A DNA stretch of 64,000 nt. It comes from Desulfuromonas sp. AOP6. GTDB lineage: Bacteria > Desulfobacterota > Desulfuromonadia > Desulfuromonadales > SZUA-540. Location of the stretch: the NCBI RefSeq assembly GCF_009731355.2, contig NZ_AP022810.1, positions 1,454,001 through 1,518,000 of the forward strand, in the 5' to 3' direction. Under the pieces are notes generated by a model. It saw nothing but the letters and a program-made list of their open reading frames with translations. It was not told the DNA's origin and did no database searches. A program made the translations under genes and the position numbers. Of this stretch, positions 51,340 to 64,000 are shown piece after piece; the stretch's first letter is position 1, and each line of letters starts with the position of its first letter.

Positions 51340-51347
51340 ACGTGAGT

Positions 51348-51386
51348 GACACAGAAAAGCCGGGGCTCTCCCGGCTTTTCTGTGTC
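51348..51386 (+). terminator. Terminator of the queA-to-TPR Sec operon
   Basis: Perfect 17-bp inverted repeat (51348-51364 with 51370-51386) and a 5-nt loop, with a TTTT run inside the 3' arm but no tract after it. It lies between the TPR gene and the truncated recJ. Confidence 0.7.
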
Positions 51387-51392
51387 AGGACT

Positions 51393-51986
51393 ATGGATTC
51401 CCTTAATTTGGCCGTCATGATGAATCCGGTTATCAGAAAAAGATGGACTGAACGCAGGTCTAAATCAGAGCCCGGCAACGTTGCAGCCCTGGTATCCGCG
51501 CTTGGAATCGGTGAGATCACCGCCAGTATTTTATGCCGGCGAGGGATCGTCGAGGAACAGGCGGCGAAAGATTATGTTGAAAGCCTGCTGGCTTCTTTGC
51601 CCGATCCGTTTTTACTTCCAGGTATGGATAAGGGCGTCAACCGCCTCGCCCGTGCCTTGGAGCGAGGGGAGTCTATTGTCATTCATGGTGATTATGACGT
51701 GGATGGCATCACCGGAACAGCTCTGCTGGTCCAGGGCTTGCGCGACCTCGGGGGGGATGTCGATTATCACATCCCTTTGCGGCTTAAAGACGGCTACGGA
51801 CTTTCCGGTCAGGCTTTGTCCGCCGCCGCCCAAAAAGGTGCTTCCCTCGTAGTCTCAGTTGACTGTGGTGTGAGTGCGGTGCAGGAGGCCGCCTTGGCTC
51901 TGGAACTTGAGCTCGACCTGATTATTACCGACCAAACTGTGGAGCATTATCAATACGGCAATAAATATTGTTTGTTCTGGCAATAA
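51393..51986 (+). pseudogene. recJ: Resident recJ, 5' part only, cut by element insertion before the DHH motif
   Basis: Encodes the first 180 residues of a deltaproteobacterial-type RecJ single-strand 5'-3' exonuclease: IVIHGDYDVDGITGTALLV (motif I Asp cluster), GYGLSGQALSAAAQKG, SVDCGVSAVQEA, then LDLIITD. In RecJ this continues as DHH, but here the frame becomes D-QTVEHYQYGNKYCLFWQ and stops. The break lies at about 51934-51936. The rest of the catalytic domain, DHHA1 and OB regions are missing from the window. The start is uncertain (ATG 51393, 51417 or 51420; no good ribosome site). The stub lacks essential catalytic residues and should be inactive. Confidence 0.88.
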
Positions 51987-51987
51987 A
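51957..51987 (+). repeat. Pair of GGCAATAAA direct repeats at the left end of the element
   Basis: GGCAATAAA occurs at 51957-51965 and 51979-51987, 22 bp apart (two helical turns), within 25-55 bp of the recJ junction. CAATA...TATTG (51951-51970) also forms an inverted pair. Such spaced repeats next to a junction could be recombinase arm-binding sites; that is inference. Confidence 0.4.
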
Positions 51988-52092
51988 CCCAATATATAAA
52001 ACAACCTACCAGTGCATATGTTTATTTACATAGTTGTATTGGTTTGGCCTTAAAAATATATATGATTGAATTGTGGTTTATGTTAACAATGT

Positions 52093-53382
52093 ATGCCTAT
52101 GCGCGTTGTTGAGACGGTTCTAAAATCCGGTGAGCGTCACTCAGTCCTTGTTGATGAGCATGGAATTCCTGATTGGTGGTCATCCATGTGGGTCATCGAG
52201 AAGCTTCGTCCTCAAGGAGGAGCGGCAAATACCATATCTACGAAACTTAGAGCTGTAATGCTCCTATGCCGCGCGCTACCACAAGCGCAGGATCTAACAT
52301 CACGCCTAGCTCGCGGTAAATGGCTGAGCGTTCCGGAAATCGATCATCTGATTGAGCAAATGGGCTTACCTGCTGACTCGATTACCCCCTTAAATGTAAC
52401 GGAAGGCGACGATAATCGAACTGTCAAAAGACGCTCCAGAGTGGTCAGCTTAGAAAAATTACGTTCAAAGCTACGCATCCAGCAACAGCAGATGGTTACT
52501 TCAAGAACCAAGGCACTACGACTTCAGATCATTCGAGAATACCTTTGGTGGCGCATCAATGCACATATCCTCCGTTCGCGTGGTCAGACCAAAATCTCGC
52601 TAACTATTCTACGAGATGAAATCGACACATATATCGAATCTAAATCCACGAATATTCGTAATGCTTCTGGTATCGGGGAACCCAAGGGATTGTCTGAAAT
52701 TCAGCAAGCCGAATTGATAGAGGTGATTCAAACAAGCTCTCCACTCAATCCATGGAAAAATGACGCATTCATTCGTTCACGCAACCAACTTCTTGTAGAG
52801 CTCTTTTTAGCTTGCGGACCTCGGCGTGGCGCAATCCTCGGCATCAAAGTGCCTGATATCGACTCGCACGTAGGTCGCATATCAGTACTTCGCCGGCCGG
52901 ACGATCTCGAAGACCCACGTACAGTACAAACGGGGAATAAAAGTGGAGACTATAAGCTTCCTCTTGGCGACCGCTTGTTTCGGTTGCTAAGAGAATATCA
53001 GGTGCTAAGGCACAAGAAGGTGAAGGGGCGACATCAGTATTTGATTGTATCGGAGGATGGTAACCCCCTTGAACAGAGCTCTGTGAACTACATCTTCAGA
53101 TCGCTGCGCAAGGTTCCACAACTTACCAATCTTCATCCCCATTTGTTGCGACACACCTGGGCGAGTAACCATGCACGGCAACGCTATGCCGAGGGAGTAA
53201 GTATCGATGAGATTGAAAAGGAACTTCGCACGTTAGGTGGTTGGAGCGAGCGGAGCAAGATGCCTGCCTACTATACACGCCAGTTCGTTGACGAACATTC
53301 CTATGAGAGTTCGCTTCGATTGCAAAACAAGGCAACGCCCATTCGAACACAAAAGCAAGTGCCTACGGATGATGTAAGATGA
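52093..53382 (+). CDS. Tyrosine recombinase, first of trio (TnpA-like)
   Basis: A 429-residue site-specific recombinase. The catalytic domain is at about 200-400: Arg I in LFLACGPRRGAILGIKVPD (R244/R245), the H-x-x-R box HLLRHTWAS (H350, R353), LGGWSE in place of the third-box His region, and Tyr393/394 in MPAYYTRQF. All key residues are present, so it should be active. The N-terminal 190 residues are the core-binding part. ATG 52093 (or ATG 52099) has no clear ribosome site and lies about 155 bp from the recJ junction. It is coupled by ATGA overlap to the second recombinase. Confidence 0.9.
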   Translation: MPMRVVETVLKSGERHSVLVDEHGIPDWWSSMWVIEKLRPQGGAANTISTKLRAVMLLCRALPQAQDLTSRLARGKWLSVPEIDHLIEQMGLPADSITPLNVTEGDDNRTVKRRSRVVSLEKLRSKLRIQQQQMVTSRTKALRLQIIREYLWWRINAHILRSRGQTKISLTILRDEIDTYIESKSTNIRNASGIGEPKGLSEIQQAELIEVIQTSSPLNPWKNDAFIRSRNQLLVELFLACGPRRGAILGIKVPDIDSHVGRISVLRRPDDLEDPRTVQTGNKSGDYKLPLGDRLFRLLREYQVLRHKKVKGRHQYLIVSEDGNPLEQSSVNYIFRSLRKVPQLTNLHPHLLRHTWASNHARQRYAEGVSIDEIEKELRTLGGWSERSKMPAYYTRQFVDEHSYESSLRLQNKATPIRTQKQVPTDDVR

Positions 53383-54926
53383 ATGAACAATTCCATGTGG
53401 AGTGGCTTACCCAGATCGCTGATCAGCCTTTGCCCGAGGAGGTCAAAGCAAAGGATGGGAATGTGTTTGATCCACGCAAGAACCACTGGAAATACAAGAC
53501 TATTGGCAAAAATGTCAGCTGCAATTTCGAATCATTACCAGAAGTCTCTCCCATCTTTCTTCACGGTTTTAAGCTGGCGTTGATCGATGCTGCGATAAGT
53601 TTTTCAGGCGCGTCAGTCCAAAGCATCTTTAATGACACGCTTCGCCTCATTAGATTCTTGGCGAGCCGGCGACAGTCTATGTTCGATGAATTGAACTTTG
53701 ACCATATAACCCAATGGGCACGAAGCTCTCCGGGTGCTGAATCGCGGGCTGCTTCTACTAGATCATTCTTCCAAGACTGGGCAAAGCGACACTACCCAGG
53801 TATCTCGTCAGAACTTGCACATACCTACCCGTCCTGCAAGCAGGGGCCAACTGGTGAGGCAGTAGCCATCCAGGACCCAACCAAAGGTCCATTTGACGAT
53901 CAAGAATTCGAATCTATCCTCGAAGGCCTTAATCACGCACTTGAATCTGGAGACATTGAGCTTGATCGCGCACTGGAAGTCCGCCTAAGTGCCCTACTCG
54001 GACTGCGTCCAAAGCAACTTGCACTCGCAAAATGTTGCGATGTCAGCCGGGACAAGTATGGGCGTGTGATTCTACGTGTACCCATGATCAAGGGTGAAAA
54101 CCAAGGTTTGCGCGACGAGTTCCGCAATTGCCCTTTGGAACCCACAACAGGTGAAGTGTTGTTGGACTACTGCGAGATGGTCAAAAAAGCATTCTCCTCA
54201 TTGCTGGCTGATACGGGTGAGGCCCCTCTTTTCCCAGACACATCTGCAGATATCGTTACCAAATCTTATATTCCCATCCTTGCATATCACACGGCGGATA
54301 CGAATATGACAGGCCGAATTACCAGAACATTGAAGAATATCCAAGCACACTCGATTCGCCTGGGAGGAAAACGCGTTCCTGGGTCGGCGGTGCGCTTTCG
54401 GCGTAGCTTCGCACAGCGTGGTGCCGAAGAGGGGATCGACATCTTCACACTGGCTCATCTGATGGGTCACCGCAACACCAATAACGTAAAAGTGTACTTT
54501 GAAATCACCAATCGTATCCGTGCCAATTTCAGCAAAAAAATCGTATTTCAGATGGCTCCTCTAGCGCAAGCATTTGGTGCACAGCTGCATATCCTTCGCA
54601 GTGAAGCCGAAGCAACGCGCCCTTCACTCAGCAGTCGTATACCCGACCTAAGGCTCGATGAACACGGGAACTTGAAAACGCTGGCGAGTTGTTCAAGTTG
54701 TAGTCACTGTAGTCAATTGCGCCCCATCGCCTGCTACGCCGGATGCAGAAGTTTTGAGCCATGGCTAGACGCAGACCACGAATCAGTCTTAGATCGCATG
54801 TTGGCGGACCGAGAAAAGCATATCGAGATTGATGAGAGAATTGCAAAAATTCGGGATTTGGCGATCCTTGGCTGCACTCAGATCGTTCTTAGGTGCCGAG
54901 ATATTCTGGCCAAGAAAACGATATGA
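53379..54926 (+). CDS. Tyrosine recombinase, second of trio, with degenerate H-x-x-R box and Cys cluster
   Basis: A 515-aa protein. Arg I is in LLGLRPKQLALAKC (R210); the second box reads VRFRRSFAQ, keeping Arg341 but with Val338 where His is usual; the third box is LMGHRNTNNVKVYFE with His364 and Tyr373. The C terminus carries five cysteines in CSSCSHCSQLRPIACYAGCRSFEPW (residues about 438-456; shown in part), a likely zinc-binding module seen in Tn554-type transposases. It may need its partners for full catalysis. ATGA overlaps at both ends mean strict co-translation in the trio. Confidence 0.87.
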   Translation: MNEQFHVEWLTQIADQPLPEEVKAKDGNVFDPRKNHWKYKTIGKNVSCNFESLPEVSPIFLHGFKLALIDAAISFSGASVQSIFNDTLRLIRFLASRRQSMFDELNFDHITQWARSSPGAESRAASTRSFFQDWAKRHYPGISSELAHTYPSCKQGPTGEAVAIQDPTKGPFDDQEFESILEGLNHALESGDIELDRALEVRLSALLGLRPKQLALAKCCDVSRDKYGRVILRVPMIKGENQGLRDEFRNCPLEPTTGEVLLDYCEMVKKAFSSLLADTGEAPLFPDTSADIVTKSYIPILAYHTADTNMTGRITRTLKNIQAHSIRLGGKRVPGSAVRFRRSFAQRGAEEGIDIFTLAHLMGHRNTNNVKVYFEITNRIRANFSKKIVFQMAPLAQAFGAQLHILRSEAEATRPSLSSRIPDLRLDEHGNLKTLASCSSCSHCSQLRPIACYAGCRSFEPWLDADHESVLDRMLADREKHIEIDERIAKIRDLAILGCTQIVLRCRDILAKKTI

Positions 54927-57061
54927 CCACACGGCTTATTCCACGTTCAGCTCAGGAAGCACGCGCTAACCTCGATGCGTTCATTGAAAAATACAGTAGG
55001 TTAGGTGCATGGGGAAAGGGCGACCATCCATTTGATGACGATTCATGGCCTCTCGCAGGGATCGGCCAAAGAGGGCTACGGGGGGGGTACGTCTACTTTG
55101 CTCGCCGAAACTACAACCCAAAACGCCACATTGTGACCAAAATGCAAGCAGCAATGATTCCAACAGATCAGCTTCAACCTGATCTGTTCCGTCAATTCGC
55201 CAAAGCAATGCAAGCCCACTTATATCAAAATCGCCCTACGACCGGCGTCCAAGCAAGGAAGGCGGCGATGGATGCGCTACTTTCGGCACTCGAAAGCAAT
55301 GGAACCGATAACCCTACAGAGGTAACAACCGCCGTATTGGATAAAGCATGCGAAATTCTTCAATTTGACTGGAAGTTGAAATCGGCTGCCAGGATAGCAA
55401 CTCAATTATCAATTATTTGGGACGCAATATTGCTGAATGAATTGGTAGCCATGCCAACTTATTGGAGAAGCCCAATACGTCAAACGGGAACTAGGGACAT
55501 TCTCCGTCTCGGCCCTGAATTTGATGATTTACGTACAGAAAAGCTACCTGATCCCCGTGCGATCGAGGCGTGCGCCGAACTATTCTGTCGTGATGATACT
55601 GACCTTCGCACCACTATCACGACCAGCGCCATTGCGTTAATGCTCTGTTCACCAGATCGATCTGTTGAATTTCTGTTTGCACACGTCGATTTGCTCACAC
55701 CATGGACCGACCCAGAGACCCAGGAGCAAGGGGTAAGCAAGCGATGGAGGCCTGCCAAGGGAGCTCAGCCACTTCTCAAGAACGTAATACCAACCATGCG
55801 CGATATAGCTATTCGCGCACATGAACGGATATTGAGAATCACAGATCCTGCGCGTGAACTTGCGCTCTGGTATGAGGCGAATCCCAACCGGATTTATCTA
55901 CAACCTCACCTTGAGTATTTACGTCAGCAAACTGTACTTAATTTGCAAGAGGTGCGCGCTATCCTCTATGGTGGTGAAGTTCGAAAATTGGACAATCGTA
56001 TTAACCAAGAAGGCGGACGTATTGCACTTTTTCTGAAATCTCATCATGTGCCTCGCAAGATGAACAAAAAAACCGGCACAACCGTGAAGTTTTTCGACTT
56101 GGAGCAGGCAATACTAGGATTATTGCCCAAGAATTTCCCAATCATGGACGTTAAAACGGGCCTCAAATACAGCGAAGCCTTGTGTGTGCTACGATATCAA
56201 GAGCTCATGGAAGCTAAATCCGGATTCATGCCAGCAATGCTCCAACAGATCACGTACGGTATGTTTGCATCAGGGATTAAGAAGATTCCAGACAATCAGT
56301 ACCATAACATCACAATATTCAAGCGGCATGGCTACCACGATGGCCAGGGCGGATTTCTTTATCTCACTAGTCACCAATTGCGCCACTATCTCAATACATT
56401 AGTGCGCCGTGATGGAACGCTAACAGAACAGGAAATCGCTTATTGGTCAGGGCGCAAGGCCGTCTCACAAAACCCAGTATACGATCACGAATCCGTTGAT
56501 GATAAGTTGCACAAACTGGAATTCAGGCTCGGGTTTCATAGCGACACTCAACCATTTGGCAATATCAATGATCGCATCTTCATCCGGCGCGACCAGTTTG
56601 GCGAGATAGAGAAAATTACCGCTCACCTCAGCTTCCTTGGTTACTGCCTGCATGACTACATGCAGTCACCCTGCCAACTTTATGAAGACTGCATCCAATG
56701 TGCTGAATTGGTGTGTATCAAGGGAGACCAAAGATCTAAATCCGCACTTGAGACCCTCTATGCTGATTCTCTGGCACTGACACATGCAGCGCGCAAAGAT
56801 TGCGATGCGGATATGCTTGGAGCTGCAGAGTGGTTTCAGGCCCATAAAAGGAGAGAAAATTACATCAAGAATCTAAAGGATATCTTTGATGACGCTGAAA
56901 TTCCGGACGGAACGCCCATCCGACTGAATACCAGCACACCGAATAAGATCAAGGAAGCTATGGCGAGGCGCGTGATTCCAATCAAGCCAATAGCTCTTAA
57001 TATTCAATCTATTGAAGATGTTACTCGGCTTCTTGCGATTCCAGATGGAAGTTCTAAGTAA
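54923..57061 (+). CDS. Large tyrosine recombinase, third of trio (TnpB-like)
   Basis: A 712-aa recombinase, about the size of Tn554 TnpB (630 aa). The C-terminal catalytic domain has SHQLRHYLNTLVRRD (H-x-x-R), AYWSGRKAVSQNPVYDHES with the likely nucleophile Tyr, and a Cys-rich tail (LGYCLHDYMQSPC, YEDCIQCAELVC). ATG 54923 makes an ATGA overlap with the preceding stop; a start at 54893 would extend into that gene. The long N-terminal half is without recognised domains. It is followed 15 bp later by the TnpC-like gene. Confidence 0.87.
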   Translation: MTTRLIPRSAQEARANLDAFIEKYSRLGAWGKGDHPFDDDSWPLAGIGQRGLRGGYVYFARRNYNPKRHIVTKMQAAMIPTDQLQPDLFRQFAKAMQAHLYQNRPTTGVQARKAAMDALLSALESNGTDNPTEVTTAVLDKACEILQFDWKLKSAARIATQLSIIWDAILLNELVAMPTYWRSPIRQTGTRDILRLGPEFDDLRTEKLPDPRAIEACAELFCRDDTDLRTTITTSAIALMLCSPDRSVEFLFAHVDLLTPWTDPETQEQGVSKRWRPAKGAQPLLKNVIPTMRDIAIRAHERILRITDPARELALWYEANPNRIYLQPHLEYLRQQTVLNLQEVRAILYGGEVRKLDNRINQEGGRIALFLKSHHVPRKMNKKTGTTVKFFDLEQAILGLLPKNFPIMDVKTGLKYSEALCVLRYQELMEAKSGFMPAMLQQITYGMFASGIKKIPDNQYHNITIFKRHGYHDGQGGFLYLTSHQLRHYLNTLVRRDGTLTEQEIAYWSGRKAVSQNPVYDHESVDDKLHKLEFRLGFHSDTQPFGNINDRIFIRRDQFGEIEKITAHLSFLGYCLHDYMQSPCQLYEDCIQCAELVCIKGDQRSKSALETLYADSLALTHAARKDCDADMLGAAEWFQAHKRRENYIKNLKDIFDDAEIPDGTPIRLNTSTPNKIKEAMARRVIPIKPIALNIQSIEDVTRLLAIPDGSSK

Positions 57062-57076
57062 TGAGTGAGTTGACCA

Positions 57077-57520
57077 ATGCCTAATAAAAGTCGGCGTGAA
57101 CGCGCCCCAAACTTAACCGACGAAAATATTGAGCTTATTGTTCTTTTGCTTGATGGATGGGATCAGACCAAACTCACTTGGGATCTCCTGATTGCCCAAA
57201 TTCAGAAACAGTTCAAGGTCAGGTATACCCGGCAAGCACTGGACCGACATGCGCGCATCAGCGATGCCTTCCAAGCTCGTAAGAAGATGCTATCCGGACT
57301 GGATCGTCGTCCCAAAACCCCGAGTGACGCACGGATTGCAGCGCTAATGGCTGAGAACGAGCGTTTGAAGCAAGAAAATACCAACTTGCTTGAGCAGTTT
57401 AGGCGTTGGCTTTACAACTGTAGCCGGATTAGCCCGAATCTCATGGAGGAGGATTGGCGCAACCATCGCGAGACTCTGCGCAAAGCGCTGGACAAAGAAT
57501 TACCCCCTGCGAATCGATAA
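57077..57520 (+). CDS. TnpC-like small accessory protein
   Basis: A 147-residue protein with a basic, helical N-terminal half (TWDLLIAQIQKQFKVRYTRQALDRHARI, helix-turn-helix-like) and a heptad-rich coiled coil (IAALMAENERLKQENTNLLEQFRRWL in parts). It matches Tn554 TnpC in position, size (125 aa) and layout; TnpC influences the orientation and efficiency of Tn554 insertion. Homology was judged by eye from layout only. It lies between the recombinases and the second recJ. Confidence 0.65.
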   Translation: MPNKSRRERAPNLTDENIELIVLLLDGWDQTKLTWDLLIAQIQKQFKVRYTRQALDRHARISDAFQARKKMLSGLDRRPKTPSDARIAALMAENERLKQENTNLLEQFRRWLYNCSRISPNLMEEDWRNHRETLRKALDKELPPANR

Positions 57521-57636
57521 GCCTCTAAGGATTTACACAGTACAGCCAAAGAGCCCATCAAAAAGGACGAAGTTGTGACACGACTATTCAATAATGCAAT
57601 GCAAATGCCCATAGCCAACGGTGGATTGTTTTGCTC

Positions 57637-59322
57637 ATGAAACTCATTCGACGCAACCCCAACCCACTGATCGTCGAAAACCTCATCCGTGAGGGGCACA
57701 CCCCACTTATGGCAAGAATTTTCGCTGGTCGCGGCGTCACATCCAACACTGATATCTTGGATCAGCTTAAACAACTCCCTGACTTTCGCCTGATGAAGAA
57801 CATTGAAATTGTAGCTGCTCATTTGGCCGACGCAATCCAGGATCAGCAACGAATCCTTATCTATGGCGACATGGACTGCGATGGTGCAACTTCGACAACG
57901 GTTGGAATACGGGGTTTGCGTGCGATGGGAGCAATTTGCGACTTCTTTGTTCCCCGGCGAGACACGCTGGGTTACGGCCTTTCCCGGGCGGGCGTTGAAG
58001 CGGTCCTTGATCGAAAGCCAGACATCATCTTGACCGTGGATAATGGAATCTCGTCCATTGACGGTGTCCGTGCCGCTCACGAACACAATATTGAAGTCCT
58101 GATAACAGACCACCACGAAGTGGGTGATGAGTTGCCTGAGTGCCTAATCGTTAATCCCAATCAGCCTGGTTGCTCGTTCCCCGCCCCGTTGGCCGGTGTC
58201 GGGGTGATTTTCTATGTGTTGCTGGCTCTGCGCGCAGAATTGAGACAGCGTGGCATGTTCACTCAGCAGACCCAGCCCCAGCTGGCCGATTTGTTGGATA
58301 TCGTCGCACTGGGCACTGTAGCTGACATGGTCAAGCTCGATTCTGTGAATAGGCTTATCACTCATGCCGGACTTCAGCGCCTAAGACGAGGCAAGGCGAA
58401 TCCTGGCATCCGCGCGCTACTTGTAGCCGCGGGCAAGCACCTTGAAACTACGACCGTGTCTGAATTTGGTTTCATCGTCGGGCCGAGAATTAATGCCGCC
58501 GGCCGATTAGACGACATGACAGTGGGCATCCGCTGTCTGCTAACTGATGACCCAAATGAAGCGGCTGCACTTGCATTCCAGCTTGATCAGCTCAACCGTG
58601 AACGACGCGAAATTGAGGAGGAAATGAAGTCACAGGCCATCGAGGATCTCAAAGCTGTAACGGACCAGAATGGCTATTCCGTCGTGCTGTACAGTCCGGA
58701 ATTTCACCAGGGCGTAGTAGGACTACTGGCATCCCGTATCAAGGATCTTCATCACCGCCCAACCGTTGCCTTTGCGGACGGTGATGACGGCATACTCAAA
58801 GGCTCAGCCCGGTCCATACCTGGGATTCATTTGCGTGATGCTATCGATCTGGTGTCGAAGCGCGTGCCAGGATGTATAAAAGTCTTCGGGGGGCACGCGG
58901 GAGCCGCAGGGTTGTCGATCTATAAAGACCGTCTGGATGATTTCAGAATCACATTTGAGACTGTATGCCAGTCTTTGCTAAGTCCTGAGGATCTAGATGC
59001 ACATCTATACTCAGACGGTGAACTTGAATCGGTGGACGTCTCAATGGCCAATGCTCAGAACATACGCAACCGAGTCTGGGGCCATGGCTTTCCTGCCCCG
59101 ATCTTTGACGGCATTTTCGAAGTACAGGAACAGAAGCTACTACAGGACAAGCACTTAAAACTCAAACTAAAATCCAATCACGGCTGGGTCGCTTCAGGAA
59201 TCTACTTCAACCAAACGAAACTGTTGCCCATCGTGACTCGTTTGGCGTTTCGGATGGAAATCAATAATTGGCGCGGAAACATATCTCTACAGATGATAGT
59301 CGAAAAAGATTTCCCGGCTTAA
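57637..59322 (+). CDS. recJ: Element-borne full-length RecJ single-stranded DNA exonuclease
   Basis: A complete 561-aa RecJ. Motifs in order: IYGDMDCDGATSTT (76 onward), TVDNGISS (135-137 DNG), LITDHH (DHH 158-160), LAGVGVIFYVLLALR, LADLLDIVALGTVADMV, IVGPRINAAGRLDDM, FHQGVVGLLASRI, FGGHAGAAGLS, then an OB-fold tail. It degrades single-stranded DNA 5'-3' in recombination and repair. It differs from the resident stub (YGDMDCDG versus HGDYDVDG; DNG versus DCG) and resembles beta/gammaproteobacterial RecJ, so it is foreign. ATG 57637 is preferred over TTG 57631. It probably replaces the broken host gene. Confidence 0.93.
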   Translation: MKLIRRNPNPLIVENLIREGHTPLMARIFAGRGVTSNTDILDQLKQLPDFRLMKNIEIVAAHLADAIQDQQRILIYGDMDCDGATSTTVGIRGLRAMGAICDFFVPRRDTLGYGLSRAGVEAVLDRKPDIILTVDNGISSIDGVRAAHEHNIEVLITDHHEVGDELPECLIVNPNQPGCSFPAPLAGVGVIFYVLLALRAELRQRGMFTQQTQPQLADLLDIVALGTVADMVKLDSVNRLITHAGLQRLRRGKANPGIRALLVAAGKHLETTTVSEFGFIVGPRINAAGRLDDMTVGIRCLLTDDPNEAAALAFQLDQLNRERREIEEEMKSQAIEDLKAVTDQNGYSVVLYSPEFHQGVVGLLASRIKDLHHRPTVAFADGDDGILKGSARSIPGIHLRDAIDLVSKRVPGCIKVFGGHAGAAGLSIYKDRLDDFRITFETVCQSLLSPEDLDAHLYSDGELESVDVSMANAQNIRNRVWGHGFPAPIFDGIFEVQEQKLLQDKHLKLKLKSNHGWVASGIYFNQTKLLPIVTRLAFRMEINNWRGNISLQMIVEKDFPA

Positions 59323-59592: not shown

Positions 59593-60042
59593 GTGATTCG
59601 TATCTCTCTATACAAAAAATCGGTGTCGGTTCTTCTTGTTCTAGCCTACTTGCTTATTGGCTCAGGCATAGGGAACGCTTTAATTTGGTGCCAGGAGTCG
59701 GAGTCCTATTCCCACTTGGAGTACAATCCGGCCGGGGAATGCCAGGATCTATGTCTGCCTGAAAAACCAGGAAACAAAATTGACGGCCTGCAGGCAGCCT
59801 ATGCTGTTTTACAATCTTTCGAAAACGATTGTCTGGACAGCCAGACGTCCCTCTTCCATGCCCCCGTTCCTGCGGCAGAACGCCTTCTCGCTGATTCTCC
59901 TGCATCCGGCTGGACTGCAATCTTCCCTTTTCCTTCCCTTGGGAATCCTCCCGCCACAATCCTTGCTCGACTTAATCTGGTCGCACAACCTCCCCCACTT
60001 CATGCTCTTGTTGCCCTGCGTACTGTAGTCCTGTTGAATTGA
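59593..60042 (+). CDS. Secreted hypothetical protein ahead of the metal-efflux operon
   Basis: A 149-aa protein not recognised as a named family. A signal-like hydrophobic N terminus (YKKSVSVLLVLAYLLIGSGIGNALIWC) is followed by four cysteines (WCQESE, GECQDLCLPEK, FENDCLDS) and a Pro/Leu-rich second half. Small exported Cys-containing proteins often precede czc/cus operons and may bind metal in the periplasm, but this is inference from position. The start is GTG 59593 without a clear ribosome site. Confidence 0.6.
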   Translation: MIRISLYKKSVSVLLVLAYLLIGSGIGNALIWCQESESYSHLEYNPAGECQDLCLPEKPGNKIDGLQAAYAVLQSFENDCLDSQTSLFHAPVPAAERLLADSPASGWTAIFPFPSLGNPPATILARLNLVAQPPPLHALVALRTVVLLN

Positions 60043-60189
60043 TCCCCTCCCCCCAGCATTGCTAAAAGCCTAACTGCGGTCTTTGCCGCCGTGCAGGCTA
60101 ATTTTCCCCTTTTGCACGCTATAATACAGAGAACCTTGGGAAGCCTAAGGCTTTTTTGAGGGAAATATCAATTCGCAAGGAGATTAACT

Positions 60190-61557
60190 ATGCGCATTGG
60201 ACGATTTGTCCTGCCGGTTTTTCTGGTTGTTGTCATGACATCATCCGCCTGGTCTCAGGGGACGGATGCCTTCGAAACAACCATTTCGGCAACCGAAACC
60301 GAAGTATCTTTTTCCACAAAATCGTCAGTCGTTCCGGAACCCGGAACCAAAGTCCTCACTCTGGCCGAGGCTCTGAGTCTGGCCTTGAAACACAATCAAA
60401 CCCTGTCCGCCTTTGACGAAGAAATTCGCGCCAGGGACGCCGCAGCCCTTCAGGCGGGGCTGCTGTCCAACCCCGTTCTCGGTGTGGAGATGGAGAATTT
60501 CGCCGGAAAGGACGCCCTACAAGGCTTTGACGGCGCCGAGACTACCATCGCCCTTTCCCAGTTGGTTGAGCTGGGAGGGAAGCGGCTCAAGCGCCGCCAG
60601 GTCGCCACCCTGGAGAAAGACCTCGCCGGTTGGGACTACCAGAGCAAAAAACTCGATATGCTTACCGCCACCGCCATGTCGTTCATTCAGGTGCTGGCCG
60701 CCCAAGAGCAGGTGGCCCAGAATGAACAGCTGGCCCTTCTGGCTGAGCAAACCCTGGGAGCAGTAGCCGCAAGGGTCGAGGCCGGCAAGGTTCCGCCCCT
60801 GGAGCAGACCCGGGCCAAGGTCGAACTGGCCTCGGCTCGCACCGCGGCCGGCAAAGCCCGCCGCGAGTTGGTGGCGTCTCGCCACCGTCTGGTTGCTTTC
60901 TGGGGAAGAGAGCGGACCGACTTCAGTCAGGTGGTCGGTGATTTGACCACCCTGGCGCCATTGCCGGCCGAAGAAACCATCCAAGGCCTCCTGGGTAACA
61001 ACCCCGATGTGGCACGTTGGGGCACCGAACTGGAACAACGCGAAGCCTCCCTGAATCTGGCTCGGGCCCAAGCCGTCCCCAATGTAACCTTCAGCGTTGG
61101 GGTCCGCAACCTGCGGGAATCCGACAACAATGCCCTGGTGGCCGGCATCGAGCTGCCCTTGCCGTTCTTCGACCGGAATCAGGGCGGTGTTGGCGAAGCC
61201 CGAGCGAATCTGGAGAAGGCCCGCCGCGAACGTCTGGCCGCCGAAACCGAAACCCTGACCGGACTCGCCGAAGCCTGGCAGAGCCTCTCCGCTGCCCATC
61301 TTGAGTCAACTACCCTGCGTGATGAAATCCTGCCAGGGGCGCAAAGTGCCTTCGAGATCGCCGAATTCGGCTACCGTGAAGGGAAGTTCGACTTTTTGGT
61401 GATGCTCGATGCCCAGCGGACATTGTTTGAGGTCAAAGGGCAGTACCTGCAGGCGCTGGCAACCTACCACCAGACGCGTACCGAATTGGAACGGCTGATC
61501 GGCGCACCGCTTGAGAAACTTTCAGAAACCGCAACCCAATATATCGATTTGAGGTGA
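60190..61557 (+). CDS. CzcC/TolC-family outer membrane efflux protein
   Basis: A 455-residue outer-membrane channel of a metal RND pump. Signal peptide MRIGRFVLPVFLVVVMTSSAWS, then two TolC repeats (LTLAEALSLALKHNQTLSAFDEEIRARDAA, LLSNPVLGVEMENF, and the second-half REASLNLARAQAVPNVTFSVGVR, ELPLPFFDRNQGGVGEA in parts) with long helices. AAGGAG precedes ATG 60190. A TATAAT at 60120-60125 could be a -10 but lacks a good -35; a small AAGCC-TAA-GGCTT hairpin with T run follows at 60141-60157. Its stop overlaps the ribosome site of the adaptor gene. Confidence 0.9.
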   Translation: MRIGRFVLPVFLVVVMTSSAWSQGTDAFETTISATETEVSFSTKSSVVPEPGTKVLTLAEALSLALKHNQTLSAFDEEIRARDAAALQAGLLSNPVLGVEMENFAGKDALQGFDGAETTIALSQLVELGGKRLKRRQVATLEKDLAGWDYQSKKLDMLTATAMSFIQVLAAQEQVAQNEQLALLAEQTLGAVAARVEAGKVPPLEQTRAKVELASARTAAGKARRELVASRHRLVAFWGRERTDFSQVVGDLTTLAPLPAEETIQGLLGNNPDVARWGTELEQREASLNLARAQAVPNVTFSVGVRNLRESDNNALVAGIELPLPFFDRNQGGVGEARANLEKARRERLAAETETLTGLAEAWQSLSAAHLESTTLRDEILPGAQSAFEIAEFGYREGKFDFLVMLDAQRTLFEVKGQYLQALATYHQTRTELERLIGAPLEKLSETATQYIDLR

Positions 61558-61562
61558 ATTTG

Positions 61563-62861
61563 ATGAAAACCAAATCTTTGATTTTAACTTCCTTAATGGT
61601 CGGGGCACTCGCTTTCGCTGCGGCCACCTGGGGGCCGATTCCGACTCCTGCCCTGGCCCAGACCGTCCCTGATCACGATAGTCACGAGGATGCGGACCAC
61701 TCCGAACAGGAGAAGGACGGGCATGCCGATGAGGGGCATGAATCCCTCCAAGGGGATAATGACAGCCACGATGAACCTGGCGGGGAAGACGAGCACGGCG
61801 AAGAAGTGGTCCGTCTATCCGCGGACGAACTAAACGAATTCGGCATCAAGCTGTCCACCGCCGCTGCGGGCCCCCTCGACCAGTATGCGGAATTGCCTGG
61901 CGAGATCGTGCTCAACGCCGACCATCTGGCTCATGTGGTTCCCCGGATCTCCGGAATTGTGCGCGAGGTGAGAAAAAGCCTTGGTGATTTGGTCAAGGCC
62001 GGCGAGGTTTTAGCGGTGATTGATAGCCGTGACTTGGCTGAGGCTAAGTCTGCGTATCTTGCGGCCAGCGCGCGCCGCAATCTGGCTCAGGCCAAGTTCG
62101 ACCGGGAGGAGCGGCTGTGGCAGAAAAAAGTCACCAGCGAACAGGAATACCTCGACGCACGTCAGGGCCTTGCCGAAGCGCGGATCGAAATGAACTCGGC
62201 GGAACAGCAACTGCACGTCCTGGGTTTCTCCGATACCTACATCAAAGAGCTTCCCCGACATCAGGATATCACCTATACCCGTTACGAAATCCAGGCCCCC
62301 TTTGCTGGCACCATCATTGAAAAGCACCTGACCTTGGGTGAAAGCGTCAACGAGGACGCTGACATATTCACCATCGCTGATCTCTCCTCGGTGTGGGTCG
62401 ATATTAATGTCTACCAGAAAGACCTGGCCCAGATCCGCAAGGGACAAAACGTGGTGATCGAGATCGGTCATGGCATCTCCGAGGCGACCGGCAAGATCTC
62501 CTGGGTTGGTCCGCTGGTGGGTGAGGCGACCCGCACCGCCAAGGCTCGGGTGGTTCTCGCCAATCCTGACGGCACCCTGCGCCCAGGCCTATTTGTGACT
62601 GCCCAGGTGGCGGTTGCCGACACACCCGTCGGGATTGTCATCCCCAAAAGCGCCCTGCAGACTTTCGAAGGGCGCACCGTGGTCTTCGTGCAGGATGAGG
62701 ATGGTTTAGAACCGAAACCGGTCCAGACCGGCCGGGAAAACGCCTCACATGTGGAGATCGTTGAAGGGCTCAAATCCGGACAGACGTATGTCAGCCAAGG
62801 GGCCTTTACCATCAAGGCTCAGTTGTCCAAGGGCGCTTTCGGCGACGGTCACAACCACTAA
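61563..62861 (+). CDS. CzcB/CusB-family periplasmic adaptor of metal efflux
   Basis: A 432-aa membrane-fusion protein. After a signal peptide (LILTSLMVGALAFAAATW) comes a stretch of about 45 residues extremely rich in His, Asp and Glu (residues about 34-80), a likely metal-collecting segment. Barrel-sandwich and hairpin domains follow (VVPRISGIVREVRKSLGDLVKAGEVLAVIDSRDLAEAKSAYL in parts), then beta-barrel and membrane-proximal domains. ATG 61563 is 6 nt after GAGGTG; an earlier GTG at 61554 overlaps the czcC-like stop. It links the inner pump to the outer channel. Confidence 0.9.
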   Translation: MKTKSLILTSLMVGALAFAAATWGPIPTPALAQTVPDHDSHEDADHSEQEKDGHADEGHESLQGDNDSHDEPGGEDEHGEEVVRLSADELNEFGIKLSTAAAGPLDQYAELPGEIVLNADHLAHVVPRISGIVREVRKSLGDLVKAGEVLAVIDSRDLAEAKSAYLAASARRNLAQAKFDREERLWQKKVTSEQEYLDARQGLAEARIEMNSAEQQLHVLGFSDTYIKELPRHQDITYTRYEIQAPFAGTIIEKHLTLGESVNEDADIFTIADLSSVWVDINVYQKDLAQIRKGQNVVIEIGHGISEATGKISWVGPLVGEATRTAKARVVLANPDGTLRPGLFVTAQVAVADTPVGIVIPKSALQTFEGRTVVFVQDEDGLEPKPVQTGRENASHVEIVEGLKSGQTYVSQGAFTIKAQLSKGAFGDGHNH

Positions 62862-62876
62862 GGAGAGGTGCGCTTC

Positions 62877-64000
62877 ATGGAAAAAATCATCCGTTTTGTC
62901 TTGCACAGCCGGCTGCTGATGAGCGTGCTCGGTGTGCTGGTTCTGGCCGCCGGCTGGTTCAGCTATCAACAGCTGCCAGTCGATGCCTTCCCCGATGTCA
63001 CCCCGGCCCTGGTGCAGGTTTTTACCGAAACCGAGGGTCTAGCCCCGGAGGAGGTGGAAAAATACGTCACCTACCCAGTTGAGACGGCCATGAACGGCCT
63101 GCCCAACCTCAAGGAGATCCGCTCGGTCTCCAACTTCGGTCTGTCGGTCATCAACGTCTATTTCGAAGATGGCACCGACATCTACTTTGCCCGCCAATTG
63201 GTGGGAGAGCGACTGCAACTGGCCCGCGAGGAAATTCCCGAAGGTTTCGGGGAGCCGGAAATGGGGCCGATCGCCACCGGTTTGGGGCAGATTCTGTTCT
63301 ATGTGGTGGAGGATGAAACCGGTCAGCGCAGCCCCGAGGAGCTGCGCGAGATTCAGGATTGGCTGATCAAGTTCAACTTGCAGACGGTCCCCGGCGTCAC
63401 TGAGGTCCTCTCCCTCGGCGGCGAAGTCAAACAGTTTCAGGTCAAGGTTCGACCCGTCGACCTGCAGCGCTACGACCTGGCCATCGGTGAGGTGGTCGAG
63501 AAGGTCAAGGCCAACAACAGCAATGTCGGGGCCCAGTTCCTGGTCAAGAACGCTGAGGAATATATCGTGCGCTCGGTCGGCCTGGCCGAACAGATTGGCG
63601 ACCTTGAACGCATCGTGCTCAAAGTGCAGGACGGCACCCCGGTCTACCTCGACCAGGTGGCCGACGTGGTGGTCGGCGGTGAAATCCGCCGGGGCTTGGC
63701 GACCACCAACGGCACCGGCGAAGCGGTGGTCGGCATGGTGCTCAAGCTGATCGGCACCAATACCTCCACCGTCATCGCCGATGTTAAAGCCAAGCTGGAC
63801 GAAATCAACACAGTGCTCCCCACGGGGGTCAAAGTCGTCCCCTACTATGACCAGGCCACCCTGGTCGAGAAATGCGTGAAGACCGTCACCGATTCCCTGA
63901 TCTTCGGCGTGCTGCTGGTCGCCGGGGTGCTGCTGATTTTCATGGGTGGTTTTCGCGCCAGCCTGGTTGTGGCCCTCTCCATCCCTTTCTCGATTTTCTT
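62877..64000 (+). CDS. CusA/CzcA-family heavy-metal RND pump, N-terminal part (runs off the window)
   Basis: The frame is open from ATG 62877 (AGGAGAGG upstream) to the window end: 374 codons of an expected 1030-1060. It starts MEKIIRFVLHSRLLMSVLGVLVLAAGWFSYQQLPVDAFPDVT (parts), the classic HME-RND N terminus with the first membrane helix, then the pore domain (EGLAPEEVEKYVTYPVETAMNGLP, FEDGTDIYFARQLVGERL) and helix 2 near residue 340 (LIFGVLLVAGVLLIFMGGFRAS). It exports Cu/Ag or Zn/Co/Cd using the proton gradient. The metal cannot be told without the missing part. Confidence 0.93.
   Translation, partial: MEKIIRFVLHSRLLMSVLGVLVLAAGWFSYQQLPVDAFPDVTPALVQVFTETEGLAPEEVEKYVTYPVETAMNGLPNLKEIRSVSNFGLSVINVYFEDGTDIYFARQLVGERLQLAREEIPEGFGEPEMGPIATGLGQILFYVVEDETGQRSPEELREIQDWLIKFNLQTVPGVTEVLSLGGEVKQFQVKVRPVDLQRYDLAIGEVVEKVKANNSNVGAQFLVKNAEEYIVRSVGLAEQIGDLERIVLKVQDGTPVYLDQVADVVVGGEIRRGLATTNGTGEAVVGMVLKLIGTNTSTVIADVKAKLDEINTVLPTGVKVVPYYDQATLVEKCVKTVTDSLIFGVLLVAGVLLIFMGGFRASLVVALSIPFSIF

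Follow-up and report, generated by a model that had tools for sequence, protein, structure and literature searches.

The recJ gene of Desulfuromonas sp. AOP6 is interrupted at the codons of its DHH catalytic motif by a 22.9-kb element that, judged from its sequence, is a GInt (ginABCD, cargo and an AT-rich end). Very probably the GinABCD proteins of this element cut recJ there, the gamma/beta-type RecJ that it carries keeps the host RecJ-positive, and an independent GInt lineage proceeds likewise in ttcA. Site-specific elements are usually thought to limit the harm they do by using gene ends or by rebuilding the end that they cut off; the GInts in recJ and ttcA represent a different solution, in which a conserved catalytic motif is cut and a whole foreign enzyme is supplied. 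To judge by the literature searched, it is new that GInts of two independent lineages destroy the catalytic motif of a housekeeping enzyme and bring a whole replacement, and so is one chimeric replacement gene joined at the attachment core. That literature yielded no description of a GInt in recJ. Already known are the GInts themselves (PMC5385486) and, in the transposon Tn552-II, a target-gene-like gene for which a rescue role has been proposed (PMC12486829).

The window, i.e., the whole stretch of 64,000 nucleotides that was analysed, corresponds to G000:C1:1454001-1518000 of a complete genome of 3.27 Mb in a single contig. The 5' part of the resident recJ (51342..51934, forward strand) aligns to the recJ of a genome of the same genus, G395 (in which this gene is single and intact), up to position 51934 as the last matching base (...ATTACCGACCA|aactgtgg). 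The cut thus falls after the GACCA of the DHH codons, and a chance frame continues to a stop at 51986; the matches to the DHH domain and to TIGR00644 both end at LIITD, where the frame diverges. The 3' half begins beyond the window at G000:C1:1528829 (window-equivalent 74829), again at the DHH codons, and a domain search of the genome recovered it as DHHA1 and RecJ_OB without a complete DHH (1529402-1530025). The left flank aligns to recJ of G395 until 51934 and the right flank from 1528829, without gaps, with 5 bp in common (GACCA) and with no loss, and the two flanks match a contiguous locus of G395 over 4.5 kb and 6.2 kb. Because both flanks join in G395 with a 5-bp overlap, the break is an insertion (1505930-1528828, ~22,899 bp) and not a deletion or a misassembly. 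A deletion, rearrangement or assembly error beside an unrelated island, as the cause of the break in the resident recJ, has next to no probability in our view, since no point in favour of it was found and since, in addition to the overlap and the contiguous locus in G395, both recJ halves lie at the two ends of the element in a one-contig genome. The cut is probably recent, because the broken halves still show a dN/dS of ~0.1 against G395. An earlier note on this DNA had proposed an integration at the catalytic codons of recJ (LIITD/DHH), had looked to the far end of the island for the missing 3' half and had called for a close relative with an uninterrupted gene; the flanks that are contiguous in the intact recJ of G395, and the 3' half found 22.9 kb downstream on the complete chromosome, agree with it on all of these points. 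The interval that it gave for the island (51393-59322), however, is too short, as the element extends to 74828.

The putative left core (attL, CGACCA, 51929..51934, + strand) shares GACCA with the right end, its 6-bp boundaries being read off from the symmetry of the arms on either side. It is followed by an AT-rich left end (51935..52092, +, 29% GC) with the arm CTGTGGA, which is found inverted at the right end as TCCACTG. Four genes on the forward strand come next: ginA (52093..53382), encoding a tyrosine recombinase of 429 aa with a Phage_integrase domain (PF00589; 22-33% against GinA of known GInts); ginB (53379..54926), encoding a tyrosine recombinase of 515 aa that aligns with GinBs (NF041502, 301 bits) and overlapping ginA by ATGA; ginC (54923..57061; 712 aa), which overlaps ginB in the same way, aligns with GinC and keeps the HQLRH...W...Y motif; and ginD (57077..57520), encoding a small TnpC-like protein of 147 aa (48% to the GinD of plasmid pTROUS1). 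No Pfam or NCBIfam model matches GinC or GinD, although both align with their counterparts in known GInts. The carried complete recJ (57637..59322, +) starts 116 bp after ginD. Cargo begins within the window at 59593..64000 (+) with genes for an OEP outer membrane protein, a CusB-like protein and an AcrB-type efflux protein and runs to ~74350 (window-equivalent), about 15 kb behind recJ; past the window it comprises P-II-like, thioredoxin, DsbD_TM/CcdA-like, DsbB and DsbA-like genes and a heavy-metal ATPase. At its right end the element is AT-rich (40% GC in the last 450 bp vs 52.8% in the window), and the putative attR core (AGACCA) lies outside the window at 74828-74833 (G000:C1:1528828-1528833). 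GACCA is identical at both ends, and across 11 nt of the end repeats ~6 positions agree.

GInts were described in 2017 by Bardaji et al. and are defined by a gin operon, a cargo of 2.5-70 kb, a short AT-rich 3' end and site-specific integration; their ends are imperfect direct repeats of 10-17 nt, they excise as a circle with all four gin genes needed, and staggered cuts of 6-7 nt are expected from tyrosine recombination (PMC5385486). All four recombination proteins of the recJ element align with those encoded by ginABCD of plasmid GInts, the order and overlaps of the operon fit, and the tripartite structure (gin operon, ~15 kb of cargo, AT-rich right end) is present. Its ends may be imperfect repeats of this kind, and its insertion may likewise be site-specific; the described GInts, however, lie at gene ends or between genes and are said probably not to inactivate their target (PMC5385486), whereas the recJ GInt cuts a catalytic motif and brings a whole replacement.

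The earlier note had likened the island to Tn554, and the logic of this comparison stands. Tn554 inserts site-specifically in radC, itself a conserved DNA-repair gene, and breaks it, and its TnpC is the counterpart of GinD; unlike the recJ GInt, it has two large recombinases instead of three and is not known to bring a replacement of radC. Kinship in the strict sense was abandoned and the Tn554 family rejected, because the element is a GInt with three recombinase-type genes and GinD, not one with tnpA/tnpB and tnpC. RIT elements, which have three recombinases of 315-410 aa and 34-bp terminal inverted repeats (PMC10214605), were rejected on account of the sizes of the recombinases (429, 515 and 712 aa), the fourth gene and ends that show only short imperfect arms. 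The strand-biased circularizing elements (SEs) are similar in their four conserved genes and in the logic of a 6-bp core but have the order intA-tfp-intB-srap and proteins that cluster separately from GinC and GinD (PMC10214605); in the recJ element the large protein is third in order and aligns with GinC, and an SE was therefore rejected.

The carried RecJ (561 aa, with DHH, DHHA1 and RecJ_OB, directly after ginD) is the sole intact RecJ of the genome, which bears out the idea of a bundled whole replacement that the earlier note had put forward. Its motifs YGDMDCDG, VDNG, TDHH, GTVAD, NAAGR and FGGHAGAAG align with solved RecJ structures; it reaches 439 bits with TIGR00644 (above the cut-off of the model), and its top score is 580 bits with the E. 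coli-type model PRK11070. The protein is divergent from the host type, and both of its parts are nearest to beta/gamma RecJ, for which reason a chimera joined at DHH was rejected. It may plausibly compensate for the broken resident copy. We propose that GinABCD would integrate at the codons for the DHH catalytic motif of RecJ and thereby destroy the resident gene, and that putative expression of the foreign (gamma/beta) RecJ from behind ginD would rescue the host by keeping it RecJ-positive. The position of the core bases within catalytic codons would make the target constant across distant hosts, and dependence of the host on the carried copy may stabilise the island.

Outside the recJ element the genome contains one GinC/GinB match only, and this is part of a second GInt of 28.2 kb (at about 3013073-3041243), and the Gin proteins of the two elements are 27-31% identical for all four. 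On its left it is flanked by the first part of ttcA, up to ...GVSGGK, and the rest of ttcA begins at the right end, so that the gene is cut at its PP-loop codons (SGGK|D); in G395 the flanks are contiguous within an intact ttcA. A whole carried ttcA, the only intact one of the genome, overlaps the stop of ginD (the carried recJ, in contrast, is separated from ginD without a tight overlap), and in this lineage the cut in the PP loop would thus be answered by a ttcA serving as the fifth gene of the gin operon. Because an unrelated GInt in the same genome handles ttcA in the same manner, replacement looks like a repeated strategy and not an accident. The Rac prophage of E. coli also has a tyrosine integrase and ttcA as its attachment gene, but it enters near the N-terminus, leaves a variant TtcA and has no separate whole gene (PMC4632033). 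The cargo of the second GInt (G000:C1:3022635-3039005; L020, L183) is a phosphorothioation defence set, with SspA, SspB, SspC and SspD as well as SspF, SspG and SspH.

Two further ttcA-type elements were found among 277 genomes of the class, in G596 and G601. The element of G596 (35.8 kb) has the order ginABCD-ttcA with an ATGA overlap, the resident ttcA being cut at SGGK and its remainder lying at the far end; in G601 the genes have this order too and the left junction is the same, with contig ends at the cuts. All three ttcA-type elements enter at one and the same codon, and their Gin proteins are 77-96% identical. Between G596 and G601, the resident ttcA halves have a dS of 1.25, as against 0.11 for ginA and 0.22 for the carried ttcA, and therefore the element, ttcA included, moved horizontally after the split of the hosts and reached the same codon in separate hosts. 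The carried TtcA proteins of G596 and G601 score 413-420 bits with the E. coli-type model PRK10696; that the carried RecJ and TtcA are both of E. coli type suggests, at the level of sequence similarity, a gamma- or betaproteobacterial origin of both GInt lineages.

The carried ttcA of this genome has 91% DNA identity to the G596 copy over bases 60-126 and then 59% and 37%, and the drop comes directly after the SGGKDS codons, i.e., at the attachment core. Its C part resembles TtcA of Desulfuromonadia, and directly behind it lies what is left of a G596-type C part (residues 133-247, 83-90%) (chimeric gene and old remnant at L020:8931-9710 and L020:9717-10080 = G000:C1:3018931-3020080). Gin recombination at the core within the carried ttcA would explain the junction of this chimera; alternatively, recombination of the homologous or illegitimate kind, in the stretch of the gene that is most conserved, might have produced it. 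The putative cores are CGACCA/AGACCA in recJ and GGCAAG/GGGAAG in ttcA, with imperfect inverted arms on both sides, an arrangement that suits tyrosine recombination with its staggered cuts of 6-7 nt (PMC5385486). The right-end core has the same sequence as the one within the carried copy in both elements of this genome (AGACCA; GGGAAG), whereas the two differ in G596 (GGCAAG vs GGCAAA). The core in the carried gene might be a live recombination site, at which its 3' half is swapped with that of the host target and the enzyme is updated as the element passes between distant bacteria, the ttcA chimera being one product; we offer this as a tentative suggestion that has the odds against it. The codons by the core in the carried copies are unusual (ATA ACA in recJ, window 58099-58119, and ATA AGC in all three ttcA), the targets using ATY ACC or TCN at the same codons. 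A recoding of the carried copies against re-insertion was rejected, as it rests on few codons and is not significant.

To see how general such replacement is, the left flank of 80 GInts (main set) and 11 more, i.e., 91 in all, was compared with the 6 kb that follow ginD. The left-flank gene was also carried in only four of them, namely the one in recJ and the three in ttcA; cross pairs matched in 3 of 6320 cases in the main set, and the self-match of one locus (L058) was discounted, as its minus-strand frames are unrelated to its ssb target. Most of the other GInts sit harmlessly at the 3' end of ssb (58 of the 80 adjoin this gene, and at least 40 visibly preserve the acidic tail of SSB), and the single GInt recovered from a scan of viral contigs is of the ssb type as well. 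The nearest relatives of the recJ element (best 40%) are located at the 5' end of an ettA-like gene. No second recJ-type element occurred among the 80 loci, which came from a GinB-alignment scan of genome contigs, and phylum-wide searches with GinC and NF041502 (395 genomes each, at the thresholds used) gave no further GInt in other genomes; as a single recJ-type element is known, its site specificity is taken by analogy with the ttcA type. Two GInts of Caballeronia (L085, L094) cut ligD at the same place near RQEFVIGG, and no replacement of ligD was found in the 6 kb behind ginD of either. One of the ligD remnants contains a stop codon, and ligD is probably dispensable. Cutting and replacing are therefore not always linked: replacement accompanies insertion in recJ and ttcA but not every within-gene insertion, and a rule that every GInt carries its target was rejected on these counts. 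On a single contig of Tepidimonas fonticaldi (NZ_VJOO01000006.1), two GInts (L074, L075) with the same gene coordinates and scores lie ~21.7 kb apart, which looks like a tandem duplication at ssb.

It might be argued that the recJ behind ginD is ordinary cargo that matches the target by chance, because GInts take up varied cargo (PMC5385486) and a single recJ element is known. We consider this improbable, as the same coincidence is met for another gene in three elements of an unrelated lineage, each of which has that gene as the first one behind ginD, and as no other surveyed GInt matches a real target. Just as small a chance is given to a carried gene that serves the element itself, either through a RecJ that processes recombination or replication intermediates or as a docking or decoy site for the recombinase. 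RecJ does act in recombination, and the identity of the right-end and carried-copy cores in this genome would fit, although this match fails in G596. The authors who described Tn552-II also suggest that its carried gene and the target may cooperate in transposition (PMC12486829); a tRNA thiolase like TtcA, however, is without a plausible role in DNA movement, and the carried genes are whole, with their catalytic residues conserved and a dN/dS of 0.22 in the carried ttcA.

Replacement of the destroyed target, the reading that we prefer, has a precedent, since a 'target-gene-like' gene (tgl) was reported in 2025 for Tn552-II, a Tn554-like transposon, and a rescue role was proposed for it by the authors (PMC12486829). 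In Tn552-II, too, the recombinase genes are followed by a homologue of the interrupted gene, and an attachment core is also found inside the carried gene; it differs in having tnpABC, not ginABCD, and in its target, a yolD-like gene or a plasmid gene whose importance is unknown, and not a housekeeping enzyme hit at its active site (PMC12486829). With replacement, the most conserved DNA of a core gene would become a target available in many hosts, each of which the supplied copy may make dependent on the island, and some of the foreign recJ or ttcA genes of bacteria would be accounted for as products of mobile elements. A simple search rule follows, namely comparison of the first gene after ginD with the gene to the left of ginA.

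At the right end of the recJ element, an ATG that belongs to the element shares its frame with the 3' half of recJ (L017:10796-12046, a 416-aa frame), and at the right end of the ttcA element an ATG of the element likewise reads in frame into the 3' half of ttcA (L183 near 3041090-3041905, a 271-aa frame); in both GInts a truncated C-terminal protein could therefore be made.
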